From Fusobacterium mortiferum ATCC 9817 (GTDB lineage: Bacteria; Fusobacteriota; Fusobacteriia; Fusobacteriales; Fusobacteriaceae), in contig NZ_GL987988.1 of NCBI RefSeq assembly GCF_000158195.2, forward strand, positions 609,632-673,631: DNA of 64,000 nucleotides, written 5' to 3'. A model generated the notes under the pieces. It made no database searches and had not been told where the DNA came from. It saw nothing but the letters and a program-made list of their open reading frames with translations. The position numbers were made by a program, and so were the translations under genes. Positions 21,738 through 50,304 of the stretch are shown one piece after another. The first letter of the stretch is position 1. Every line of letters starts with the position of its first letter.

Positions 21738-22799
21738 TTATTTTTTATTCAATATCTTTAATAATTTCTCATCAGCTGAAGTATATGTATGAGCATATAT
21801 TCCTAAAGTTGTTTCTATATTCTCATGTCCTAATCTTTTAGCAATAGTTAGAATATCTACTCCATTATTAAATAGATAAGAAGCATGACTATGTCTTAAA
21901 TCATGGATTCTTATTTTTTTTAATCCAGCTTTTTCACTATATATTCTTAAATCATTTTCAAATAGATGCTTAGTATATGGGAATAATCTCATAGTTTTGC
22001 TTGGTTTATATAACATTTTCAAATATCTTTCTAATAGTTCTACTACACTATCTGGAATAGTTACTACTCTTTTTGATTTTGTAGTTTTAGGAGCTGTTAT
22101 TACATCTTCTCCCTCTAATCTTTGATAACTTTTAGATATAGAGATAGTTTTATTTCTTAAATCTATATCTTTAAGAGTTAAAGCTAGTAGTTCTCCTATT
22201 CTAATACCAGTCCAGAATAAAATATTAAAACCAACATAGTTAGGCATCTTATTTTTTATAAATTGACTAAATTTTTCAAACTCTTCAGGTGTCCATATTA
22301 TCATTTCTTCGGCTTTTTTCTTTCCCATGCTCCCTGCTTTATGACATGGATTTTCTTTCATATTGTGATATTTTACAGCATAATTAAATATAGCTGTTAG
22401 TTGGTTATTTATTGTTTTTAAATATGTAGGAGAGTATGGGGTATTTTTAATAGATACCCCACTTATTAAAGTATTTTGCCATTGCCTTACTTTTACTGGT
22501 GTAATGCTATCTAGCTTTAGTTTAGAAAAGAATGGTAAAATTTTATCTTCAATAATTTTTTTCTTAGTCATCATAGTATGTTTTCTTAATCTATGTGTCA
22601 TATCTTCCATATATAATTCATACAAGCTCTGGAAAGTCATTCTATTATTGAAAGTAGCTTTCATTATAAATTCTCTCTCATAATCTAAAGCTTCTCTTTT
22701 AGTTGCAAATCCTCTTTTGGTAGTTTGAATATTAGTTCCAGTATAATCTCTATAATAAAATACAGCTCTCCAAGTTTTACCATCTTTAAATGCTGGCAT
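21738..22799 (-). CDS. int: Tyrosine-type integrase
   Basis: The 353-residue site-specific recombinase has an N-terminal arm-binding domain (GKTWRAVFYYRDYTGTNIQT), a SAM-like core-binding domain (about 55-160) and a complete catalytic domain: Arg200 in WTGIRIGELLAL, His299-x-x-Arg302 in IHDLRHSHASYLF, His325 in RLGHENIETT and the nucleophile Tyr335 in LGIYAHTYT. Length is normal. It lies in the middle of the phage genome, ten kilobases from the visible phage edge, which is unusual. A decayed relative lies at 45,519. Confidence 0.95.
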   Translation of the reverse strand: MPAFKDGKTWRAVFYYRDYTGTNIQTTKRGFATKREALDYEREFIMKATFNNRMTFQSLYELYMEDMTHRLRKHTMMTKKKIIEDKILPFFSKLKLDSITPVKVRQWQNTLISGVSIKNTPYSPTYLKTINNQLTAIFNYAVKYHNMKENPCHKAGSMGKKKAEEMIIWTPEEFEKFSQFIKNKMPNYVGFNILFWTGIRIGELLALTLKDIDLRNKTISISKSYQRLEGEDVITAPKTTKSKRVVTIPDSVVELLERYLKMLYKPSKTMRLFPYTKHLFENDLRIYSEKAGLKKIRIHDLRHSHASYLFNNGVDILTIAKRLGHENIETTLGIYAHTYTSADEKLLKILNKK

Positions 22800-23986: not shown

Positions 23987-24246
23987 TAAACCACCTTCAC
24001 TTTATAAGCTTTTTTAACTCCTACAGGTCTATAATCAGCTTTTGCCTGTTCTAATGTAATTTCAACCCAATGTTTATCTATTCTTTTTAAGATAATAGGA
24101 GAAAGATTTTTTTGTAAATGTTCATTATAAATAATAACAGCATCTTGAGGATAGGTTAAACTAGCTTTTTCTGCTTTTTCAAATATCTCCCCTCTGGAAT
24201 TTATTTCAATTCCAGAGGTACTTTTAACAATATAATTAAAACCCAT
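23986..24246 (-). CDS. Hypothetical phage protein, 86 aa
   Basis: No family is recognised. The sequence MGFNYIVKSTSGIEINSRGE then FEKAEKASLTYPQDAVIIYN and KHWVEITLEQAKADYRPVGV shows a mixed alpha-beta protein. It overlaps the DUF3102-like gene by 11 bases, so it may belong to the same partition or replication unit. Confidence 0.6.
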   Translation of the reverse strand: MGFNYIVKSTSGIEINSRGEIFEKAEKASLTYPQDAVIIYNEHLQKNLSPIILKRIDKHWVEITLEQAKADYRPVGVKKAYKVKVV

Positions 24247-25204
24247 TTGTTTTCTCCTTTATATCAACTGGGGTATAATTTAATACATTCGCCAATTTTA
24301 TTAATAGTTGATGTGCTTCATCATATGTTTTTTGAATAGGAATAAGAGTTGTTATCTCTCCAGCTGAGGTATTCCAATAAGATTTTAAATTAGGATATCT
24401 AACTATACAAAAACCTTCTTCATAATCACATGAATCTATAAGATAGATACTCCCATCCTCATCTTTATAAAAATGAGATATAGGTTTCTCCTCTATAATC
24501 TCAGCATCTGTAGGTAATTGTAAATTATTTTCATTCTCTCTTGCTTTCTCTTCCTGTTCTATTTCTTTTTGTAATTCCTTTAACTCTTTTATTAAGACTG
24601 AAATATTCTCTTTTTCTTTTACTAGTTCTTTTAAGGAAGTAGCTTTTTCTATTCTTTTTTTAAAAAAATTACAAGTCTTTTTTATATGAGGTTGTAGTTC
24701 TTTTGGTTTTTCAACTATTTCAGGAGTTCCAATTATCTCAACCATATCTTCTACTTTTTTTAACTCTAATTCTAATATTTTTTCTCTAACTTCTACATCA
24801 ACTGCTTTTTTAGTTAATAATTTAACTGCTGGAATAGATAAAGATGATATATGGACTTTTTTATCTGGAGCTAACATATACAGTTCAAATCTTTTAGTCA
24901 ATTCAGATACTTTATCTTTATTAAGTCCATTGAACTTATACCAATCAGTAAATGTCATTTCTCCATAATCTCCATATTTTTTTAACTTTTGTCTTACATC
25001 ATACAAAGCTTTACATATTTCATATAAATTTTCTGAATAAGCTTTAAATCCTTTAAATAAGATTTTTTCTCTTTCAATGATATAATTTTTTTCTTCTTCA
25101 GTGATGACATAAGCTCCAAACTTAAAATCACTATGGTATTCTTCTTCATTTTGGTTTTCAGTTAATTGATTTTTTAATTGCTTAAATATTTCTATATCTG
25201 CCAT
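24236..25204 (-). CDS. DUF3102-like protein, likely partner of ParA
   Basis: The 322-residue protein has a DUF3102-like segment near residues 55-110 (ENLYEICKALYDVRQKLKKY and FTDWYKFNGLNKDKVSELTK) with a helix-turn-helix look, then a long charged coiled coil (about 160-225) and a C-terminal beta domain. Such proteins are often encoded next to ParA in plasmids and phages and act as the DNA-binding half of a partition pair. Here its ATG overlaps the parA stop. The ParB-like role is inferred from this. Confidence 0.6.
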   Translation of the reverse strand: MADIEIFKQLKNQLTENQNEEEYHSDFKFGAYVITEEEKNYIIEREKILFKGFKAYSENLYEICKALYDVRQKLKKYGDYGEMTFTDWYKFNGLNKDKVSELTKRFELYMLAPDKKVHISSLSIPAVKLLTKKAVDVEVREKILELELKKVEDMVEIIGTPEIVEKPKELQPHIKKTCNFFKKRIEKATSLKELVKEKENISVLIKELKELQKEIEQEEKARENENNLQLPTDAEIIEEKPISHFYKDEDGSIYLIDSCDYEEGFCIVRYPNLKSYWNTSAGEITTLIPIQKTYDEAHQLLIKLANVLNYTPVDIKEKTNGF

Positions 25205-25902
25205 TATAGTAATACCTCCAAAGCTCTCTCTATAATAGCTCTAAATTTTGAACTATTATACTTTGTTTTATCAAATAGTGTATTTCCTTCTTCTATCAAT
25301 CGAGATATAATAGCTGATTGAGATATAGGACATGATACAAAGATACTTGTATCTACTAAAGTTTCAACTAATTTTTTGTAATATTCCTTTTCCACTTTGC
25401 ATCTAGTGGCTCTATTTGGTATGATAGCTTTTATCTTACTATATTCAGCTTTTCTCAACATATTTGTTATACTTGAAGTAGTTACTGAATCTAGGAATGT
25501 AGGTATTACTATCTGGTCTGCTACTTCTAAGAAAATATCATCTAGGCTTAAAACTGGTGTAGCATCTATGTAGATGTAGTCAAATAACTTTTTGATAACT
25601 TTTATAAAATCTCTAAAATTATCTATATCTTTATCTGGAATATTCATAGTAGTTAATGGTATGTAGTATAGATTATCTCTTAATTCTAAATATGTTCCAT
25701 TTTTCTTTGTTATCCAGTACTCTAAACCATTTTCAAAATTATTTTCTTTTATTCCAGCAAAACGAGGTATATTATTTTGAGAATCTGAAGTGATGATTAA
25801 TACCTGTTTATCTTTTAAAGCTGTTGCATGAGCTAATTGGAGAGTGAGCCAGCTTTTGCCTACTCCCCCTTTATTTGCTTTTACTAATATAACTTTACTC
25901 AT
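25204..25902 (-). CDS. ParA-family partition ATPase
   Basis: The 232-residue protein has the deviant Walker A of ParA/MinD ATPases, KANKGGVGKSWLTLQLA, at about residues 8-24, a Walker A-prime-like YIYIDATPVLSLDD and a Walker B-like QIVIPTFLDSVTT. It would move or position the phage DNA in the cell with its DUF3102-like partner. ParA in a phage genome suggests an extrachromosomal, plasmid-like stage. Confidence 0.85.
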   Translation of the reverse strand: MSKVILVKANKGGVGKSWLTLQLAHATALKDKQVLIITSDSQNNIPRFAGIKENNFENGLEYWITKKNGTYLELRDNLYYIPLTTMNIPDKDIDNFRDFIKVIKKLFDYIYIDATPVLSLDDIFLEVADQIVIPTFLDSVTTSSITNMLRKAEYSKIKAIIPNRATRCKVEKEYYKKLVETLVDTSIFVSCPISQSAIISRLIEEGNTLFDKTKYNSSKFRAIIERALEVLL

Positions 25903-27850: not shown

Positions 27851-28012
27851 TCATATTTCCTCACTTATTATTTTTTCTACTTCATATTTAAATACTCTTG
27901 TCTTAAATGATGCTCCACAAATATTACATTTATAATATCTAATTCTTTTATTATTTTTAATTTTGCTACAATAAGACTTTAGTTTTTTATTACATTCTGG
28001 ACATCTAATCAT
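27851..28012 (-). CDS. Zinc-ribbon protein, Ogr/Delta-like
   Basis: The 53-residue protein begins MIRCPECNKKLKSYCSKIKN and continues YYKCNICGASFKTRVFKYEV. The Cys-x2-Cys ... Cys-x2-Cys pattern with A-S-F-K-T-x-x after the second knuckle recalls the Ogr/Delta late-gene activators of P2-like phages (C-S-A-x-F-x-T). It could also be a transposase-type ribbon. The ATG lies in the end of the preceding gene. Confidence 0.5.
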   Translation of the reverse strand: MIRCPECNKKLKSYCSKIKNNKRIRYYKCNICGASFKTRVFKYEVEKIISEEI

Positions 28013-28448
28013 TGGTAATCCTTTTAGCTATAATTTCAGCTTCTATCTTACTATTTTCATCTCCTAGTTTTCCTCTACATTCTTTTACATAATTAATTAA
28101 ATAGTTTCTATTTTTATCATCTATTTCTTCTAATTTTTTTTCTTCCTTTTTTAAAGAATGATATTTTTGGAAATATTGATGAAATTTTTTATTAAAATCG
28201 GAAGCTAGTTTAACTAATTTTGCTTGATAATCAGCAGGTAATTCTTTTGCAAATTCATATAATCCCTCTACATGTTTTACTCTTAACTCAAAAAGATAAT
28301 CTTGTATCTCCCATTGTTCATCTCTTCTTTTATCGTCTAACGAATCAATCACTTCACTATTTCTTAGAGCTTCTTCAATAGTCATAACATGACACATTAG
28401 ATTCATACTTCTTTCTAGTTCCATACTAGGAATACTTTGTTTTGCCAT
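28005..28448 (-). CDS. Hypothetical helical phage protein, 147 aa
   Basis: The protein is helical and highly charged, with SMELERSMNLMCHVMTIEEA, DEQWEIQDYLFELRVKHVEG and a Lys/Glu-rich coiled-coil from about 95. No family is recognised. It is the second gene of the early transcript after the Cro-like regulator. An AAAGGAG site precedes its ATG. Confidence 0.6.
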   Translation of the reverse strand: MAKQSIPSMELERSMNLMCHVMTIEEALRNSEVIDSLDDKRRDEQWEIQDYLFELRVKHVEGLYEFAKELPADYQAKLVKLASDFNKKFHQYFQKYHSLKKEEKKLEEIDDKNRNYLINYVKECRGKLGDENSKIEAEIIAKRITND

Positions 28449-28598
28449 AAAATTCTCCTTTCGTTATTTGGTATGCTATCTTTTTTACAGTTCCACAGCT
28501 CAACTATCTCTCGCCTACAAACAGTTTTAGAGTTCTGTCAACTACCTCGCTAGTATTATTATTTGTAAAGATTGATACAAATAGATAAAAGTGTGTTA
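28449..28598 (-). promoter_or_regulatory. Early leader between regulator and 147-aa gene
   Basis: This 150-base gap has a possible minus-strand promoter (TTGTAT, 16 bases, TAATAC) and repeated AGTTGACAGAACT / AGTTGAGCTGTGGAACT motifs that could fold. No frame with a ribosome site is present. It may be a leader or binding site. Confidence 0.3.
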
Positions 28599-28769
28599 TT
28601 ATTTAATAACGGCAGAATCAAAAATATTTTTAATTTTTATTAATGTTTCTTCATCTTGTTTTTGGATTCTATTATATAACCAAACTCTTGAAATATTTAA
28701 CTTTTTAGCTAATTCTGTCATTGTGATATTTCTATTTAAACATTCAATTTTAATTTGTTTCAAATTCAC
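28599..28769 (-). CDS. Cro-like HTH regulator
   Basis: The 56-residue protein has a helix-turn-helix (NITMTELAKKLNISRVWLYN) and a short C-terminal tail. The GTG at 28769 lies five bases after AGGAGGG and is a better start than the ATG at 28796. It is transcribed divergently from the repressor across a shared operator, the position of Cro in a lysis-lysogeny switch. Confidence 0.75.
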   Translation of the reverse strand: MNLKQIKIECLNRNITMTELAKKLNISRVWLYNRIQKQDEETLIKIKNIFDSAVIK

Positions 28770-28789
28770 AATATCCCTCCTAAAAACTA

Positions 28790-28809
28790 TTATCATTTGT
28801 TAATGATAA
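28790..28809. promoter_or_regulatory. Operator palindrome of the lysogeny switch
   Basis: A 20-base perfect dyad with 8-base arms (TTATCATT, loop TGTT, AATGATAA) overlaps the -10 edge of the minus-strand early promoter. A partial copy, TTATCATCTGTCAATA, covers its -35 at 28823-28838. These are likely repressor and Cro sites. Confidence 0.7.
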
Positions 28810-28836
28810 TATATCACAAATGTTATCATCTGTCAA
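28808..28836 (-). promoter_or_regulatory. Early lytic promoter (minus strand)
   Basis: On the minus strand a perfect TTGACA (28831-28836) is followed after 17 bases by TATATT (28808-28813). It drives the Cro-like regulator and the early operon and is covered by the operator sites. Confidence 0.75.
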
Positions 28837-28854
28837 TAGAAAAAAATAAAACTA

Positions 28855-28883
28855 TTTACAGTTGTTAATATTGATATTATAAT
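28855..28883 (+). promoter_or_regulatory. Repressor/lysogeny promoter (plus strand)
   Basis: TTTACA (28855-28860), a 17-base spacer and a perfect TATAAT (28878-28883) lie 20 bases before the repressor ATG. The transcript should extend through the repressor and the two membrane proteins that follow. Confidence 0.75.
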
Positions 28884-28902
28884 TATAATAAGAGGTGGAA
28901 AA

Positions 28903-29586
28903 ATGGAAGATAAAATAAATGACTATGTTGTTCCAGTTGAAATAAGAGAAAAACTAGGAGCATACATAAAAGCTAGAAGAGATGAGTTAGCAATAGGATT
29001 AAACCAAATATCTGTTAAAACAGGTGTTGCTAGTTCGTTGTGGTCACGTTTAGAAAATGGAAAAGTTCTAAAAATAAATCCATTTTTATTAAAAAAAATA
29101 GGCGAAGGTTTGAAAATTGACTATAAGGAGTTGTACAAAATAGTGGGATACTTGGATGAAGATAAAAATGAGATAATTGGAAATATTGATTTAAACTTAG
29201 AATATAAAAAAGTTCCATTATATAGTTCTATCAGTGCTGGATATGGAGCTTGTGAATCAGATGTAATTGACTATATTGCATTACCGATGGTTAATGCTTT
29301 TTCTGGAGATGTATTTGCCGTAAGAGTAAATGGAGATAGTATGGAACATACAATAGAAAATCATTCTATTGTTTTTATTAAAAGAGATTCGGAAGTTGCG
29401 AATAAAAAAATTGGAGCTTTCTTATTGAATAATGAGGCTCTTTTAAAAAGATATTATATAACTGATAATGGTGTATTCCTAAGAAGTGATAATAGAGAGT
29501 ACCCAGATATTAGAGTAAGAGAACATGATGATTTTATAATTGTAGGTAGATATATTGGTAGTGTTATCAATGAAGATGATATGTAA
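28903..29586 (+). CDS. LexA/CI-like phage repressor (S24 peptidase domain)
   Basis: The 227-residue protein has an N-terminal XRE helix-turn-helix (about 18-75, GLNQISVKTGVASSLWSRLE) and a C-terminal S24 autoprotease domain with the cleavage pair Ala112-Gly113 in SISAGYGA, the nucleophile Ser146 in VNGDSMEHT and the base Lys182 in EALLKRYY. It keeps the prophage silent and would be self-cleaved after RecA activation, so induction by DNA damage is expected. AGAGGTGG precedes its ATG. Confidence 0.93.
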   Translation: MEDKINDYVVPVEIREKLGAYIKARRDELAIGLNQISVKTGVASSLWSRLENGKVLKINPFLLKKIGEGLKIDYKELYKIVGYLDEDKNEIIGNIDLNLEYKKVPLYSSISAGYGACESDVIDYIALPMVNAFSGDVFAVRVNGDSMEHTIENHSIVFIKRDSEVANKKIGAFLLNNEALLKRYYITDNGVFLRSDNREYPDIRVREHDDFIIVGRYIGSVINEDDM

Positions 29587-29608
29587 TTAATATAAAAGGG
29601 GATTGGTA

Positions 29609-31033
29609 ATGGATAAACTAGAAAATTATATAATTGTTAGTTTAGAAACAACAGGTTTAAATCATTTAGTAGATGAAATTTTAAAAATAGAAGCTATAAG
29701 AATAGAAAATGGTAATATAGTAGATACTTTTAAAGAATTTATAAAACCAAAGTTTGAAATTCCAAAAGAGGCGAGTAGAATAAATGGAATAACTTTTGAA
29801 GATGTTAAAAATTCCCCATCAATAGAAGATGTTTTAGATAAATTTAAAAATTTTAGAAAAAAAGGAGATATTTTAGTAGCCTATAATGCTGAATTTGTAA
29901 GTAAATTTATAGGTTTTAATTTTAAACGATATAAAAACTCTATTTTTTCACATGAGTTTATAGATTTATTATCACTAGTAAGATATATTTATAAGAATAT
30001 ACCTTCTTATAATCTTAAATATGTTGCAACATATTTAAAAATAGATTCAACTAATAAAGATAAAACTATTATATGTTATGAAATTTTAAAAAATTTAAAA
30101 AATAAAATAGGAGATAATCAAGAAAAAATATTTAATGGAAGTGAATGTATAATTAAATATTTGGATGAAAAGAAATTAAAAAAACTTAATAAAGATTCTG
30201 GATACAAAAAAGAAGTAAAGAAAAAATGGTTGCTAATAATTTTAACTTTTTTAGTAGTATTTTTAGGTTGTATCTTTATAAATAGAAATAGTAATGAAAA
30301 AATTCTTGAAATGAAATATGGCACTAGTTTTGATGGAAAAATAGCTCCACAAATATCAGATGGAAAGATAAAGTTAGAGATAACAGCTAATGTTCCAGAT
30401 GGAGCAATATTAGAAACAACACTAGTAGGTTACAAGGGAAAAGAGCCAACTTTTAATGTCCAAAACATTGTTATAAAAGATGGTAAAGGAGAATTTATAG
30501 CAGATATTAGTGATTGGAATCATGGTTACCTTTCAGCAATGGCAATGTTTAGATTTAATTCTGATGAGATAATCCAGCCTAAAAATATAAAAGCTCTATA
30601 TGGAGAACATGGAGAAAAAATGGAAGGAGTTTTTATTCAAGAAAATCATTTAAAAGGATATAATGGTATTTTAAAATACAAACAAATACCATATCCAAGC
30701 TATGAAGTTTTAAGAGCTGAAAATAAAGATAATTTTAATTATATAATAATTAATACTTTTAAAGATGTTCCAAAAAGTATTGTAAATGATATACAGATAC
30801 TAGAATTGACAAACTATTCAATAAGAATTAATATAGTTGTAGGAGATGGATGGTATAATTTATCTTTATCTCAAAAAGAGAAATTAGTAACTCAACTATC
30901 GTTAGCTTTTAAAGAATTAGCTGTAAAAAATTATCAAGCAGCTAATAATGAAAATGTAGTTGTATTTTTTATGAGTAAAAGTGGAAATGAAGTAGCAGCT
31001 CCCAAAGTTTTTGGAGGATATGAGATAAAGTAA
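29609..31033 (+). CDS. Membrane protein with degenerate DnaQ-like exonuclease domain
   Basis: The 474-residue protein is co-directional with the repressor, 22 bases after it. Residues about 5-165 look like a DEDD exonuclease of the DnaQ/PolC epsilon kind (IIVSLETTGL, ILVAYNAEFVSKF, NLKYVATYLKID), but the first catalytic Asp is Ser11, the HN-x-x-F-D Asp is Val97 and the last His/Asp pair is missing, so catalysis is unlikely. A basic stretch precedes one membrane helix (about 206-226), and a beta-rich domain of about 245 residues follows, probably outside. It may bind nucleic acid or nucleotide and signal across the membrane. ATG 29609 follows AAGGGG. Confidence 0.65.
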   Translation: MDKLENYIIVSLETTGLNHLVDEILKIEAIRIENGNIVDTFKEFIKPKFEIPKEASRINGITFEDVKNSPSIEDVLDKFKNFRKKGDILVAYNAEFVSKFIGFNFKRYKNSIFSHEFIDLLSLVRYIYKNIPSYNLKYVATYLKIDSTNKDKTIICYEILKNLKNKIGDNQEKIFNGSECIIKYLDEKKLKKLNKDSGYKKEVKKKWLLIILTFLVVFLGCIFINRNSNEKILEMKYGTSFDGKIAPQISDGKIKLEITANVPDGAILETTLVGYKGKEPTFNVQNIVIKDGKGEFIADISDWNHGYLSAMAMFRFNSDEIIQPKNIKALYGEHGEKMEGVFIQENHLKGYNGILKYKQIPYPSYEVLRAENKDNFNYIIINTFKDVPKSIVNDIQILELTNYSIRINIVVGDGWYNLSLSQKEKLVTQLSLAFKELAVKNYQAANNENVVVFFMSKSGNEVAAPKVFGGYEIK

Positions 31034-31057
31034 AATAAATATTTTAAAGAGGAAAAT

Positions 31058-32077
31058 ATGGGATTATATACTAAAATAGATAAATATTTAACAGATTTAA
31101 ATGGGAATATATTTAAAATGGATGAATTTATTAGTTCTCTCTCTGAGGATGTAATAAAAGAATTTAAACTAATTCCAGATAATGATAATAAAAGTTTTAT
31201 AGAAGAGAGATTAAAAAAATTTTTATTTTCTGTATTAAAAAATAAAAAGATGTTAGCTCTTTATAATGGGAATAGTAATGATTATATTTTGTTTGATAGT
31301 GATGAAGCTAAAATAATTTTTCTTTTTAAGAAATTTGGATTCCCAATTTTAGACCAGCCTTTTCAATATTCCTTATTATCAAGAGAGCTAAATGAACTTT
31401 TTAAAATATATGATGGAATTATCAAAGAAGAAAAAATTCAAAAGCTAAAACTAAGAAACTTTTTAAAAGAATATTGCGAAGAGGTTTATCTAATAATTAA
31501 GCCTACTATAATTTGTAATTCATCAAACGATACAGAAGTATTACTTGAAGTTATAGGGAAAAATTTAGAAATGGAATATTTAAAGAAAATTGATAATAAA
31601 CATTCAAAAATTATAACATCTTTGAATAAAAGTGAACAAACTTTAAAAGAGCTGAATGTAGAGCTAAGTAATAGATATGAAGAGTTAGAAAAATTAAAGA
31701 AAGAAAATGAGGGGTTAAAGAAGAAATATAAAGATTCAACTTTATATAGCATATCTACAATGGGTATATTTTTAGCTATTTTTTCTTTAATTAGTATTAA
31801 TGCCACTTCTGTATTTGAGTTAATAAAAGGAGAAAAAATTTTTTCAAAGTTTGGAGGGGTCTTATTAATAAATGGGGTAGTATTAATGGGAGTATCCAGT
31901 TTAATTTTGCTAATAAAATCTTTTTTTAGTTTGAGTGAAGATGAAAAAAAAATAAAAATATTAGAAAAGAAAGTTCTAGTTATTTCAATAATACTTTGTC
32001 TTAGTGGAGTTTTTCTTATATTTATTCAAGAGTTAAAATTAGGAAATAATAACTTTATTTTATTATTAAATATTTAA
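31058..32077 (+). CDS. Coiled-coil membrane protein, three TM helices, lysogenic
   Basis: No family is recognised for this 339-residue protein. Residues 1-180 are a soluble alpha-helical domain, about 183-225 is a coiled coil (SEQTLKELNVELSNRYEELE), and three membrane helices follow at about 232-250, 267-289 and 305-324. It lies 24 bases after the degenerate-exonuclease gene, in the same operon as the repressor and at the phage edge, where exclusion or defence genes often sit. AGAGGAAAAT precedes its ATG. Confidence 0.6.
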   Translation: MGLYTKIDKYLTDLNGNIFKMDEFISSLSEDVIKEFKLIPDNDNKSFIEERLKKFLFSVLKNKKMLALYNGNSNDYILFDSDEAKIIFLFKKFGFPILDQPFQYSLLSRELNELFKIYDGIIKEEKIQKLKLRNFLKEYCEEVYLIIKPTIICNSSNDTEVLLEVIGKNLEMEYLKKIDNKHSKIITSLNKSEQTLKELNVELSNRYEELEKLKKENEGLKKKYKDSTLYSISTMGIFLAIFSLISINATSVFELIKGEKIFSKFGGVLLINGVVLMGVSSLILLIKSFFSLSEDEKKIKILEKKVLVISIILCLSGVFLIFIQELKLGNNNFILLLNI

Positions 32078-32426
32078 AATTATAACATAAAGTTTGACAA
32101 TATTTTGACAATGAAAATCATAAAAAACTTATAAAATTATTAAAAATAAATAAAATAGATAAAATGGAATGTAGAAAAAATGAGAAGTTGTGAACTGATA
32201 TATATTTAAACGTAGCGAATGGGAATAGGAGCTAGAATAGCTGAAACTAGTTAAAATAGCTACTTCCAGATAGTGAAAATAAGAAATTGGCCGCAAAATG
32301 GCCGTATAATAGAAAAGCAGCCCTAAAAAGCTGCTTTTTTTATTTACTATAATTAATGAATTAAAATTATTGTTTTGATTATTTATTTCTTTATCAAAAG
32401 TGTTATAGATAAATATACTTATAGGA
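32078..32426. other. Right prophage boundary region
   Basis: This 350-base gap has no supported gene. It contains a TTTGACAA direct repeat (about 32091-32110), a repeated GGCCG pair (32289, 32300) and a strong terminator at 32313. Phage genes end and host genes start here, so the right attachment site should lie in it or in the 3' end of the nitrilase gene. A 122-residue frame on the minus strand here is judged spurious. Confidence 0.5.
32313..32341 (+). terminator. Terminator ending the lysogeny operon
   Basis: AAAGCAGC pairs with GCTGCTTT around CCTAAAAA and is followed by seven T. It stops plus-strand transcription from the repressor operon before the convergent hydrolase gene. Confidence 0.8.
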
Positions 32427-33242
32427 TTATATTTGCTTTTTAGATATTTCAGTATTTTTTCTTTCTTTTCTACAAAAATACTCTTTTTTTCTCTCAAAAT
32501 TAAAATCTTTACACATTATATTTGAATTTTTTCTAAATTCTTGTATATCAAATTCTAAATATCTTTCCTTTTCTTTTAAAGGAAAAATTAATTGAGTTCC
32601 ATCATAATTATAAATAGTACTATTTCCTAAAAAGGTAGCCGATAAATTATTATTCACTTCTTTCCCAACACGATTACAAAGAATAATTGGAGTTAAATTC
32701 TCAATAGCTCTTATTTTATAAATTTCATATGTTGTTACTCCACCAAAATTACCCGAAATAAAAATTAAATTAGCTCCTAAGTCTATTTGTTCTCTTGATA
32801 TCTCTGGGAACCATACATCAAAACATACTTGAAGACCTATACTTACTCCTTGAACTTCAAAAACTTTATTTTCTTTTCCAGTTTCAAAAAAATTCTTTTC
32901 AAAATCAGTTAAATGAATCTTTCTATATGTTCCAATTAAATATCCTTTATCTATTACAATAGCAGAGTTATATATTTTATCTCCATCTTTTTCAGCTACT
33001 CCAACTATTACAGATTTTTTATTTTCTAATGTTATATTTTTCAACTTATTTATTAAGATATTTTTTTCTAATTCTGTAGCTATAGAAAAAAGTTCTTCTC
33101 TATTGTTATAAAGATATCCCCTATCTGAGAGTTCAGGTAAAATAAATATATCAGCATTATTATTAGAAATTATTTTTGAAATTTTAATAATATTTTCATT
33201 TATATCCTTACAAATATTTATTTGTAAAATTCCTATTTTCAT
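32427..33242 (-). CDS. Carbon-nitrogen hydrolase (nitrilase superfamily)
   Basis: The 271-residue protein has the Glu-Lys-Cys triad of the nitrilase superfamily: Glu37 in FILPELSDRGY, the Lys in TYRKIHL and the nucleophile Cys in LQVCFDVWFPE. Members cleave amides or nitriles in nitrogen scavenging. The substrate cannot be told. It is the first host gene after the prophage and its basic, Lys/Glu-rich C-terminus (CRKERKNTEISKKQI) may have been altered by phage insertion. AAAGGAG precedes the ATG. Confidence 0.85.
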   Translation of the reverse strand: MKIGILQINICKDINENIIKISKIISNNNADIFILPELSDRGYLYNNREELFSIATELEKNILINKLKNITLENKKSVIVGVAEKDGDKIYNSAIVIDKGYLIGTYRKIHLTDFEKNFFETGKENKVFEVQGVSIGLQVCFDVWFPEISREQIDLGANLIFISGNFGGVTTYEIYKIRAIENLTPIILCNRVGKEVNNNLSATFLGNSTIYNYDGTQLIFPLKEKERYLEFDIQEFRKNSNIMCKDFNFERKKEYFCRKERKNTEISKKQI

Positions 33243-48990: not shown

Positions 48991-50304
48991 TTATACAACT
49001 CCAATCATACCAAGAATAATAGTAACAACTAGTGCAATTATAGGGATTACACAAGTAACCATACCAATATCATTATATGAATCTTTATGAGTCATTTTAG
49101 TAACTGCTAGTAATGTTAACACTGCTCCACAATGTGGTAAAGAATCTAATCCTCCAGATGCTATAGTCGCTATTCTATGGAAGACTTCTATATTCATTCC
49201 GCTAGTAGCAGCTATTTGTATATATTGAGGAGCTAGAGCTTCAAGAGCTATTCCCATTCCTCCCGAAGATGAACCAGTTGCTCCAGCAAGTAAAGTTACT
49301 GCTAAAGCTTCTGAAATAAGTGGACTAGCTTTAAGACCTAAAAGTAAATCTGTTAATGTTTGGAACCCAGGGACTATTTTTACTACTCCACCGAATCCAA
49401 CAGCAGCAGCAGTATTTAAAATTGCAATAACAGCTCCATTTGCTCCATCATTAAGAGCTTTTGTAAAAAGATTAGATTTTTTTAAATTTAGAATAACAAC
49501 AGCAATATTACCACAAAGTAAAGATAAAATACTAGCTGGAGTAATAGCCATACCTATTTTACTTAAAATATATAAAGAGATTACTACTACTAAAAGAGGT
49601 AAAATTGAAAGATAAGCATTAGGTAATTCTATATTTTGCTCAACTATTTCTCCTTCAGGTTCCGTAAATGTTTCTCCATTTTTTATTAATTTATTTTGCT
49701 GCCAAATAAGATAGAAATATCCACATCCTAGCATGATTAATCCACCAACTATACCTAATATAGGTGCAGCATATGGAGTTGTGTTAAAATATCTTCCAGC
49801 AATGATATTATTTAATTGTGGACTTCCAGGAAAAGCTGTCATAGTAAAAGTAAATGCACCAAGAGCTATAGCTCCAGGGATTAATCTTCTTGGTAAATTA
49901 GCTTCTCTGAATAAAGAGATTGCAAGAGGATAGATAGCAAATACAACTACGAATAAACTAACTCCACCATAAGTTAAAACAGCACAACTTACTATAACTG
50001 ATAATAAAGCTCTTTTTGCTCCGATAAGTTTTACTAGAAGATGGGCAACAGCTTTAGCCGATCCAGTAACATCCATTAACTTTCCAAAAACTGCTCCTAA
50101 GAAAAACAGAGGAAACCAAGATTGTGTAAATGCAGCTAACGAACCCATATAGTTGATAATATATGAATCTAAAAGTTTATTTCCATCAAATCCAAAACCT
50201 AATAATGCAACAACTAGGGCTGAAACTGGAGCTACCCATATAATAGAGTATCCCCTATATGATAAAAAAACTAAAAGTATTAATCCAATTAGTATACCTA
50301 ACAT
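48991..50304 (-). CDS. GntP-family permease
   Basis: The 437-residue protein has about twelve membrane helices and the GntP features: an opening LGILIGLILLVFLSYRGYSI, the LGAVFGKLMDVTGSAKAVAH segment, VLTYGGVSLFVVVFAIYPLA and a final ATGSSSGGMGIALEA with TIASGGLDSLPHCGAVLTLL. The family takes up gluconate or hydroxy acids with H+. Next to a CoA-transferase and beta-oxidation genes a short-chain hydroxy acid such as 3-hydroxybutyrate is a fair guess. ATG 50304 is chosen by AAGGAGG spacing. Confidence 0.85.
   Translation of the reverse strand: MLGILIGLILLVFLSYRGYSIIWVAPVSALVVALLGFGFDGNKLLDSYIINYMGSLAAFTQSWFPLFFLGAVFGKLMDVTGSAKAVAHLLVKLIGAKRALLSVIVSCAVLTYGGVSLFVVVFAIYPLAISLFREANLPRRLIPGAIALGAFTFTMTAFPGSPQLNNIIAGRYFNTTPYAAPILGIVGGLIMLGCGYFYLIWQQNKLIKNGETFTEPEGEIVEQNIELPNAYLSILPLLVVVISLYILSKIGMAITPASILSLLCGNIAVVILNLKKSNLFTKALNDGANGAVIAILNTAAAVGFGGVVKIVPGFQTLTDLLLGLKASPLISEALAVTLLAGATGSSSGGMGIALEALAPQYIQIAATSGMNIEVFHRIATIASGGLDSLPHCGAVLTLLAVTKMTHKDSYNDIGMVTCVIPIIALVVTIILGMIGVV

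Follow-up and report, generated by a model that had tools for sequence, protein, structure and literature searches.

A membrane-anchored protein with a dead PolC-like exonuclease domain from a variable slot beside the CI gene of a Fusobacterium mortiferum prophage

The CI operon of a prophage in Fusobacterium mortiferum ATCC 9817 runs on beyond the repressor gene into two further genes, ORF A and ORF B, which raise the question of what a nuclease-like protein lacking its active site and a helical membrane protein do at a phage edge. The original prediction, made for the window (the whole 64,000-nucleotide stretch that was analysed), described them as a two-gene membrane cassette made only in the lysogen, in which a pseudo-nuclease would sense nucleic acid or nucleotide and signal to a membrane effector, and considered exclusion or anti-phage action to be typical of such a position.

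ORF A (474 aa, 29609-31033) and ORF B (339 aa, 31058-32077), both confirmed as open frames on the plus strand, follow the gene for a CI/LexA-type repressor with HTH and S24 peptidase parts (28903-29586, plus strand; PF00717, 3.1e-24; PHROG 4, 2.3e-36). The intergenic gaps are 22 nt between CI and ORF A and 24 nt between ORF A and ORF B, and no terminator lies within the three genes. The first terminator-like hairpin, which is the sole one in 28450-32500, appears past ORF B (32311-32340, plus strand) and, because it sits beyond attR, may serve host genes. A promoter-like site for the operon (TTTACA-17-TATAAT, 28855-28883, plus strand) matches the consensus at 11 of 12 positions, a match of limited weight because such sites are not commoner across the CI-operon region than in shuffled sequences. 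From the operon layout we infer that ORF A and ORF B are expressed in the lysogen, and in the lysogen only.

The 11-mer GAATGGGAATA closes guaA at the left prophage limit (L028:14809), and a second, exact copy lies on the plus strand at 32217-32227, 140 bp past the ORF B stop codon. Although an 11-mer alone would be modest evidence in AT-rich DNA, its placement at the guaA stop makes the attR call convincing, and homology of the window to a sister species genome (G001) resumes at 32336. The prophage thus probably spans from the guaA 3′ end to position 32227, and the location of the two genes at the phage edge was borne out. Another exact copy of the 11-mer, on the minus strand at 49249-49259 and outside the prophage, is probably there by chance. 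The attachment site seems to be located at the B-holin junction. The tyrosine integrase gene (21738-22799) is separated from the probable attR by about 9.4 kb, unlike the related prophage of genome G011, in which the integrase is near the end of the sequence examined. A ParA-like gene and its adjacent partner gene (24236-25902; PHROG 164, 7.1e-27) occur in both prophages, and phages of this group may partition like plasmids.

To describe the genes that follow CI in related prophages, we used as an anchor the gene on the other side of CI (28008-28448), which is present in 17 of 98 Fusobacteriota genomes and in eight viral contigs. The content of the slot differs from prophage to prophage. A PADLOC search at 1e-6 returned 336 families for 97 slot proteins, among them methyltransferases, specificity subunits, LmuB and MADS components; 336 is not a system count because one protein can match many families, and the distinct kinds of defence genes number at least eight. 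As a control, the 31 non-slot proteins of the window prophage gave a weak match of one protein to one PADLOC family. Matches in Pfam include DarT with a NADAR antitoxin, a KAP NTPase, Abi_2, Vsr and a SMODS 4TM effector. Individual slots hold a CBASS pair (L121; cyclase, 2.3e-124, and 4TM effector), a TIR protein (L117), GmrSD/NsnA (L110; 3.4e-51) and, elsewhere, type I, II and III methyltransferases of restriction-modification and Lamassu LmuB (2.6e-81). CI-linked prophage defence hotspots of this kind, beside CI, with varying content and rich in known defence genes, were already known from Vibrio and Bacillus (PMC9122126). The hotspots between cI and integrase described by Rousset et al. (2022, PMC9122126) are the same sort of variable CI-side slot with known defence systems, but the slot studied here belongs to another phage group and borders attR rather than the integrase. 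With it, a defence slot linked to CI is described for Fusobacteriota prophages, and it offers many candidate systems.

Because related Fusobacteriota prophages fill this slot with defence genes, the positional support for a defence or exclusion role is strong, and the original prediction was right about the defence-like position; the conserved A-B pair that went with it is not supported, as described below. A slot position shows the company that a gene keeps, not its function. With that in mind we lean, if only slightly, towards regarding ORF A and ORF B as CI-linked anti-phage cargo in a variable slot of a Fusobacteriaceae prophage, made in the lysogen, with ORF A acting at the membrane and ORF B as the effector. 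Two further kinds of slot content were seen. Two CI slots (L116:897-4500 and L118:1701-5309) have in common a trio of methyltransferase, GHKL-type ATPase and small response-regulator-like protein, and PADLOC gave no match at 1e-10 for the L116 ATPase. Another CI slot (L120:177-2222) encodes a three-helix membrane protein and then a DUF4041 and T5orf172 protein.

ORF A begins with an RNase_T/DnaQ-like domain (residues 12-148; Pfam PF00929, E 3.7e-26), which together with its linker occupies 29609-30220 of the plus strand, and its best solved relative is the PolC-type exonuclease 2p1j (E 3.8e-22). To compare the active site, we aligned ORF A with a set of exonucleases that included PolC domains. 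The catalytic set of DEDDh 3′-5′ exonucleases (D-x-E, D, H-x4-D) is incomplete in this alignment: the motif I Asp is replaced by Ser11, with the Glu retained as Glu13; the motif II Asp is replaced by Val97; and the His and Asp of motif III are missing (STNKDK, as compared with HHRAVDD in PolC). Four of the five catalytic residues are lost, Glu13 being the sole survivor, and the earlier assignment of Ser11, Val97 and an absent His/Asp was correct in its numbering. ORF A resembles PolC-type DEDDh exonucleases (2p1j; PF00929) in fold and in its sequence core (residues 5-150) but lacks most of the catalytic residues, is tethered to the membrane and has no polymerase. It also matches the PADLOC candidate PDC-S48 (1.9e-13), through 106 residues of the exonuclease part only. 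ORF A is a clear test case for the reuse of a nuclease fold at the membrane without catalysis.

A single membrane helix is predicted in ORF A at residues 207-225. Its N-terminal flank (+5) is of the cytosolic type, so the exonuclease part should be cytosolic, and the last ~249 residues are predicted to lie outside the membrane, so that the expected topology of one helix and a large outside domain was recovered by prediction. The outer domain (about residues 230-474; 30302-31030, plus strand) was modelled, with a mean pLDDT of 80, as an Ig-type beta sandwich and an alpha/beta part. Over model residues of about 3-133 it compares with common Ig-like domains at VIA-align Z scores of up to 8.2, which show only a common arrangement; a fold search of the PDB returned nothing at E 0.001 or better, and Pfam gave no defence match. 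Alignments showed that the domain is common to CI-linked proteins of four other prophages (L005, identical to L109; L110; L007, identical to L014; and L008), in which it stands without the exonuclease directly behind S24 repressors, and in L110 it carries a lipobox, a lipoprotein signal. A match in G052 contig 92 was a partial frame and was left out of the count. As judged from these alignments, the outer domain travels separately from the exonuclease domain. Neither the outer domain nor ORF B has sequence relatives in the phage and plasmid collections, and both are lacking in eleven further genomes from the same genus.

In a fold comparison with predicted viral proteins, the outer domain is closest to O03948 (304 aa, E 7.1e-7), which may be Lorf304 of the Lactobacillus phage phig1e, a protein of the same length. 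Lorf304 is a membrane-anchored Ig-domain protein encoded in a lysogeny module, between CI, a downstream gene and xis-int, and is in these respects like the outer part of ORF A; an hhalign probability of 0.1 gave the likeness no sequence-level support. The Ltp-type superinfection-exclusion lipoproteins of Streptococcus thermophilus TP-J34 (PMC3952083) are similar to ORF A as products of a lysogeny-module gene with predicted outer anchoring, and the lipobox of the L110 relative extends this likeness, which is known here from sequence, but ORF A has an extra cytosolic domain; Pfam detected no Ltp domain or other named lipoprotein family in ORF A or its relatives. We propose that ORF A would be an inner-membrane protein whose cytosolic PolC-like domain no longer cuts and may have been retained to bind DNA ends or a replication protein, and that its outer Ig-plus-alpha/beta domain would be the part common to stand-alone exclusion-type membrane proteins or lipoproteins found in the same position elsewhere. 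Such a protein would most likely act at the membrane, by blocking or sensing an incoming phage.

Across the 98 Fusobacteriota genomes, the dead domain has its nearest counterpart in a 263-aa protein of G011 with 43-45% identity, which consists of two membrane helices followed by the dead domain and hence has a different anchor. Its motif I Glu is replaced by Thr, its motif II Asp by Cys, and motif III is lost; the sets of lost residues in the two proteins overlap but differ, and both keep the core motifs of the exonuclease domain. Since the G011 gene follows a CI-like gene, a dead PolC-like domain is kept in the CI operons of two prophages on two anchors, and the two prophages have the same backbone of ParA, partner, DnaC-like, DnaD-like and integrase genes. 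We conclude, from sequence comparison, that the dead exonuclease domain is a lineage and not an accident. A single-sequence search with the G011 protein yielded no viral relatives, and the other viral exonucleases found keep their catalytic residues wherever the alignment covers them. At L063:12427-14947, the G011 prophage also has a reverse-transcriptase-like ORF beside a phage-structural-like ORF, an arrangement that, judged by eye, resembles a diversity-generating retroelement.

ORF B had been described as a coiled-coil protein with three membrane helices. The helices are indeed predicted (residues 229-247, 268-286 and 306-324), and the probable coiled coil of the helical region ahead of them amounts to a suggestive heptad pattern. 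An AlphaFold model of ORF B alone was poor (mean pLDDT 52). ORF B has no named family in the libraries searched, which included Pfam and PADLOC, and neither of these two detected an S_4TM or SLATT domain, as found in CBASS/SMODS-associated TM effectors. Three relatives were found in the 98 genomes (in G037, in G075 and, as a weak interrupted match, in G048) and none in viral contigs, whether the query was a single sequence or an alignment. The one clear relative, that of G037 (phmmer 7.8e-11), is 31% identical over residues 169-325, a similarity that falls mostly in the coiled-coil and membrane segments. Its gene immediately follows that of a Panacea antitoxin, and the gene of the G075 relative adjoins a DUF2262 gene. 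Several of 30 Panacea loci have a three-membrane-helix protein directly downstream, but ORF B is matched clearly by the G037 protein only and weakly by one other (profile 5.8e-6).

PanT toxins of the membrane type depolarise cells, and in a Helicobacter sp. member a coiled-coil-like part precedes C-terminal helices (PMC8832971), an architecture resembling that of ORF B. Unlike in PanAT, the neighbour of ORF B is ORF A, and the genome of the window has no Panacea gene (PF13274), hence none adjacent to ORF B. The Panacea-linked relative and the depolarising PanT toxins together make a membrane effector role for ORF B no more than plausible. ORF B would then be an effector of the membrane-depolarising type, possibly restrained by its neighbour ORF A.

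Outside the window, no A-like gene was found in company with a B-like gene. The dead exonuclease domain recurs once more, in G011, without ORF B; the outer domain of the four other prophages is accompanied by neither the exonuclease nor ORF B; and the ORF B relatives keep other partners. The conserved two-gene cassette, which the original prediction had itself made dependent on pairing across genomes, is therefore unsupported, and the A and B modules look, from their distribution, like shuffled cargo. One possible hypothesis, which we take seriously without preferring it, is that A and B are unrelated cargo, A excluding superinfection through its outer domain, with its dead exonuclease as a passenger or small regulator, and B being a separate membrane protein of a toxin-like or abortive-infection type. 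The separate distribution of the genes, the outer domain lacking an exonuclease in four prophages and once present as a lipoprotein, and the other partners of the ORF B relatives all favour this hypothesis, but A and B are 24 nt apart in one apparent operon, and two prophages keep the dead domain as related, still recognisable folds. What would point to a functional link between A and B is only the operon that they share. A more specific mechanism, a defence system founded on a dead proofreading domain, in which the membrane-tethered pseudo-exonuclease would bind a replication protein or nucleic acid of an infecting phage and thereby activate ORF B as a membrane-depolarising partner, we consider unlikely; if the dead domain were such a sensor, it would be an unusual means for a prophage to detect a competitor.

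Alternatively, ORF A might serve its own prophage, in repressor control, induction or membrane-linked replication, rather than act against other phages. It is co-encoded with CI, and the ParA-like genes of this phage group make membrane or replication roles conceivable; yet the slot content varies and ORF A is missing from most relatives that share the anchor gene, unlike a core lysogeny gene, and we judge this explanation rather improbable. We are equally doubtful that the dead exonuclease mimics the host PolC domain and holds replication proteins of the invader or the host at the membrane. The domain is 37% identical to the host's own PolC exonuclease domain, and lost catalysis would suit a decoy, but the tree does not group it beside host PolC: ORF A and the G011 copy form one clade (support 96/95), both on long branches. 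That the exonuclease domain is merely decaying, as the loss of four of five catalytic residues might suggest, is very improbable and was rejected, given the uninterrupted 1425-nt frame and the related G011 copy on a different anchor with its core motifs kept.

In keeping with the reading that we favour, anti-phage cargo of the CI slot, catalytically intact PolC-like exonucleases occur in the CI regions of other temperate phages, namely Campylobacter phage PC10, C. difficile CD2301 and the viral contig L069, and the dead domain of the window may derive from this theme, which is a lead rather than a demonstrated descent. In L069 (3098-6723) the order is a CI-like gene, a metalloprotease-like (ImmA-like) gene, the exonuclease gene, a gene for a 331-aa protein and the integrase gene. 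The exonuclease protein combines a membrane helix, a HIRAN-like stretch and an intact exonuclease, and is a possible active cousin of ORF A. In phage PC10 (L067:3839-7292), the genes after CI encode an exonuclease-BRCT protein with its exonuclease intact, then a small protein and a KAP-type NTPase, and the set is a candidate defence operon.
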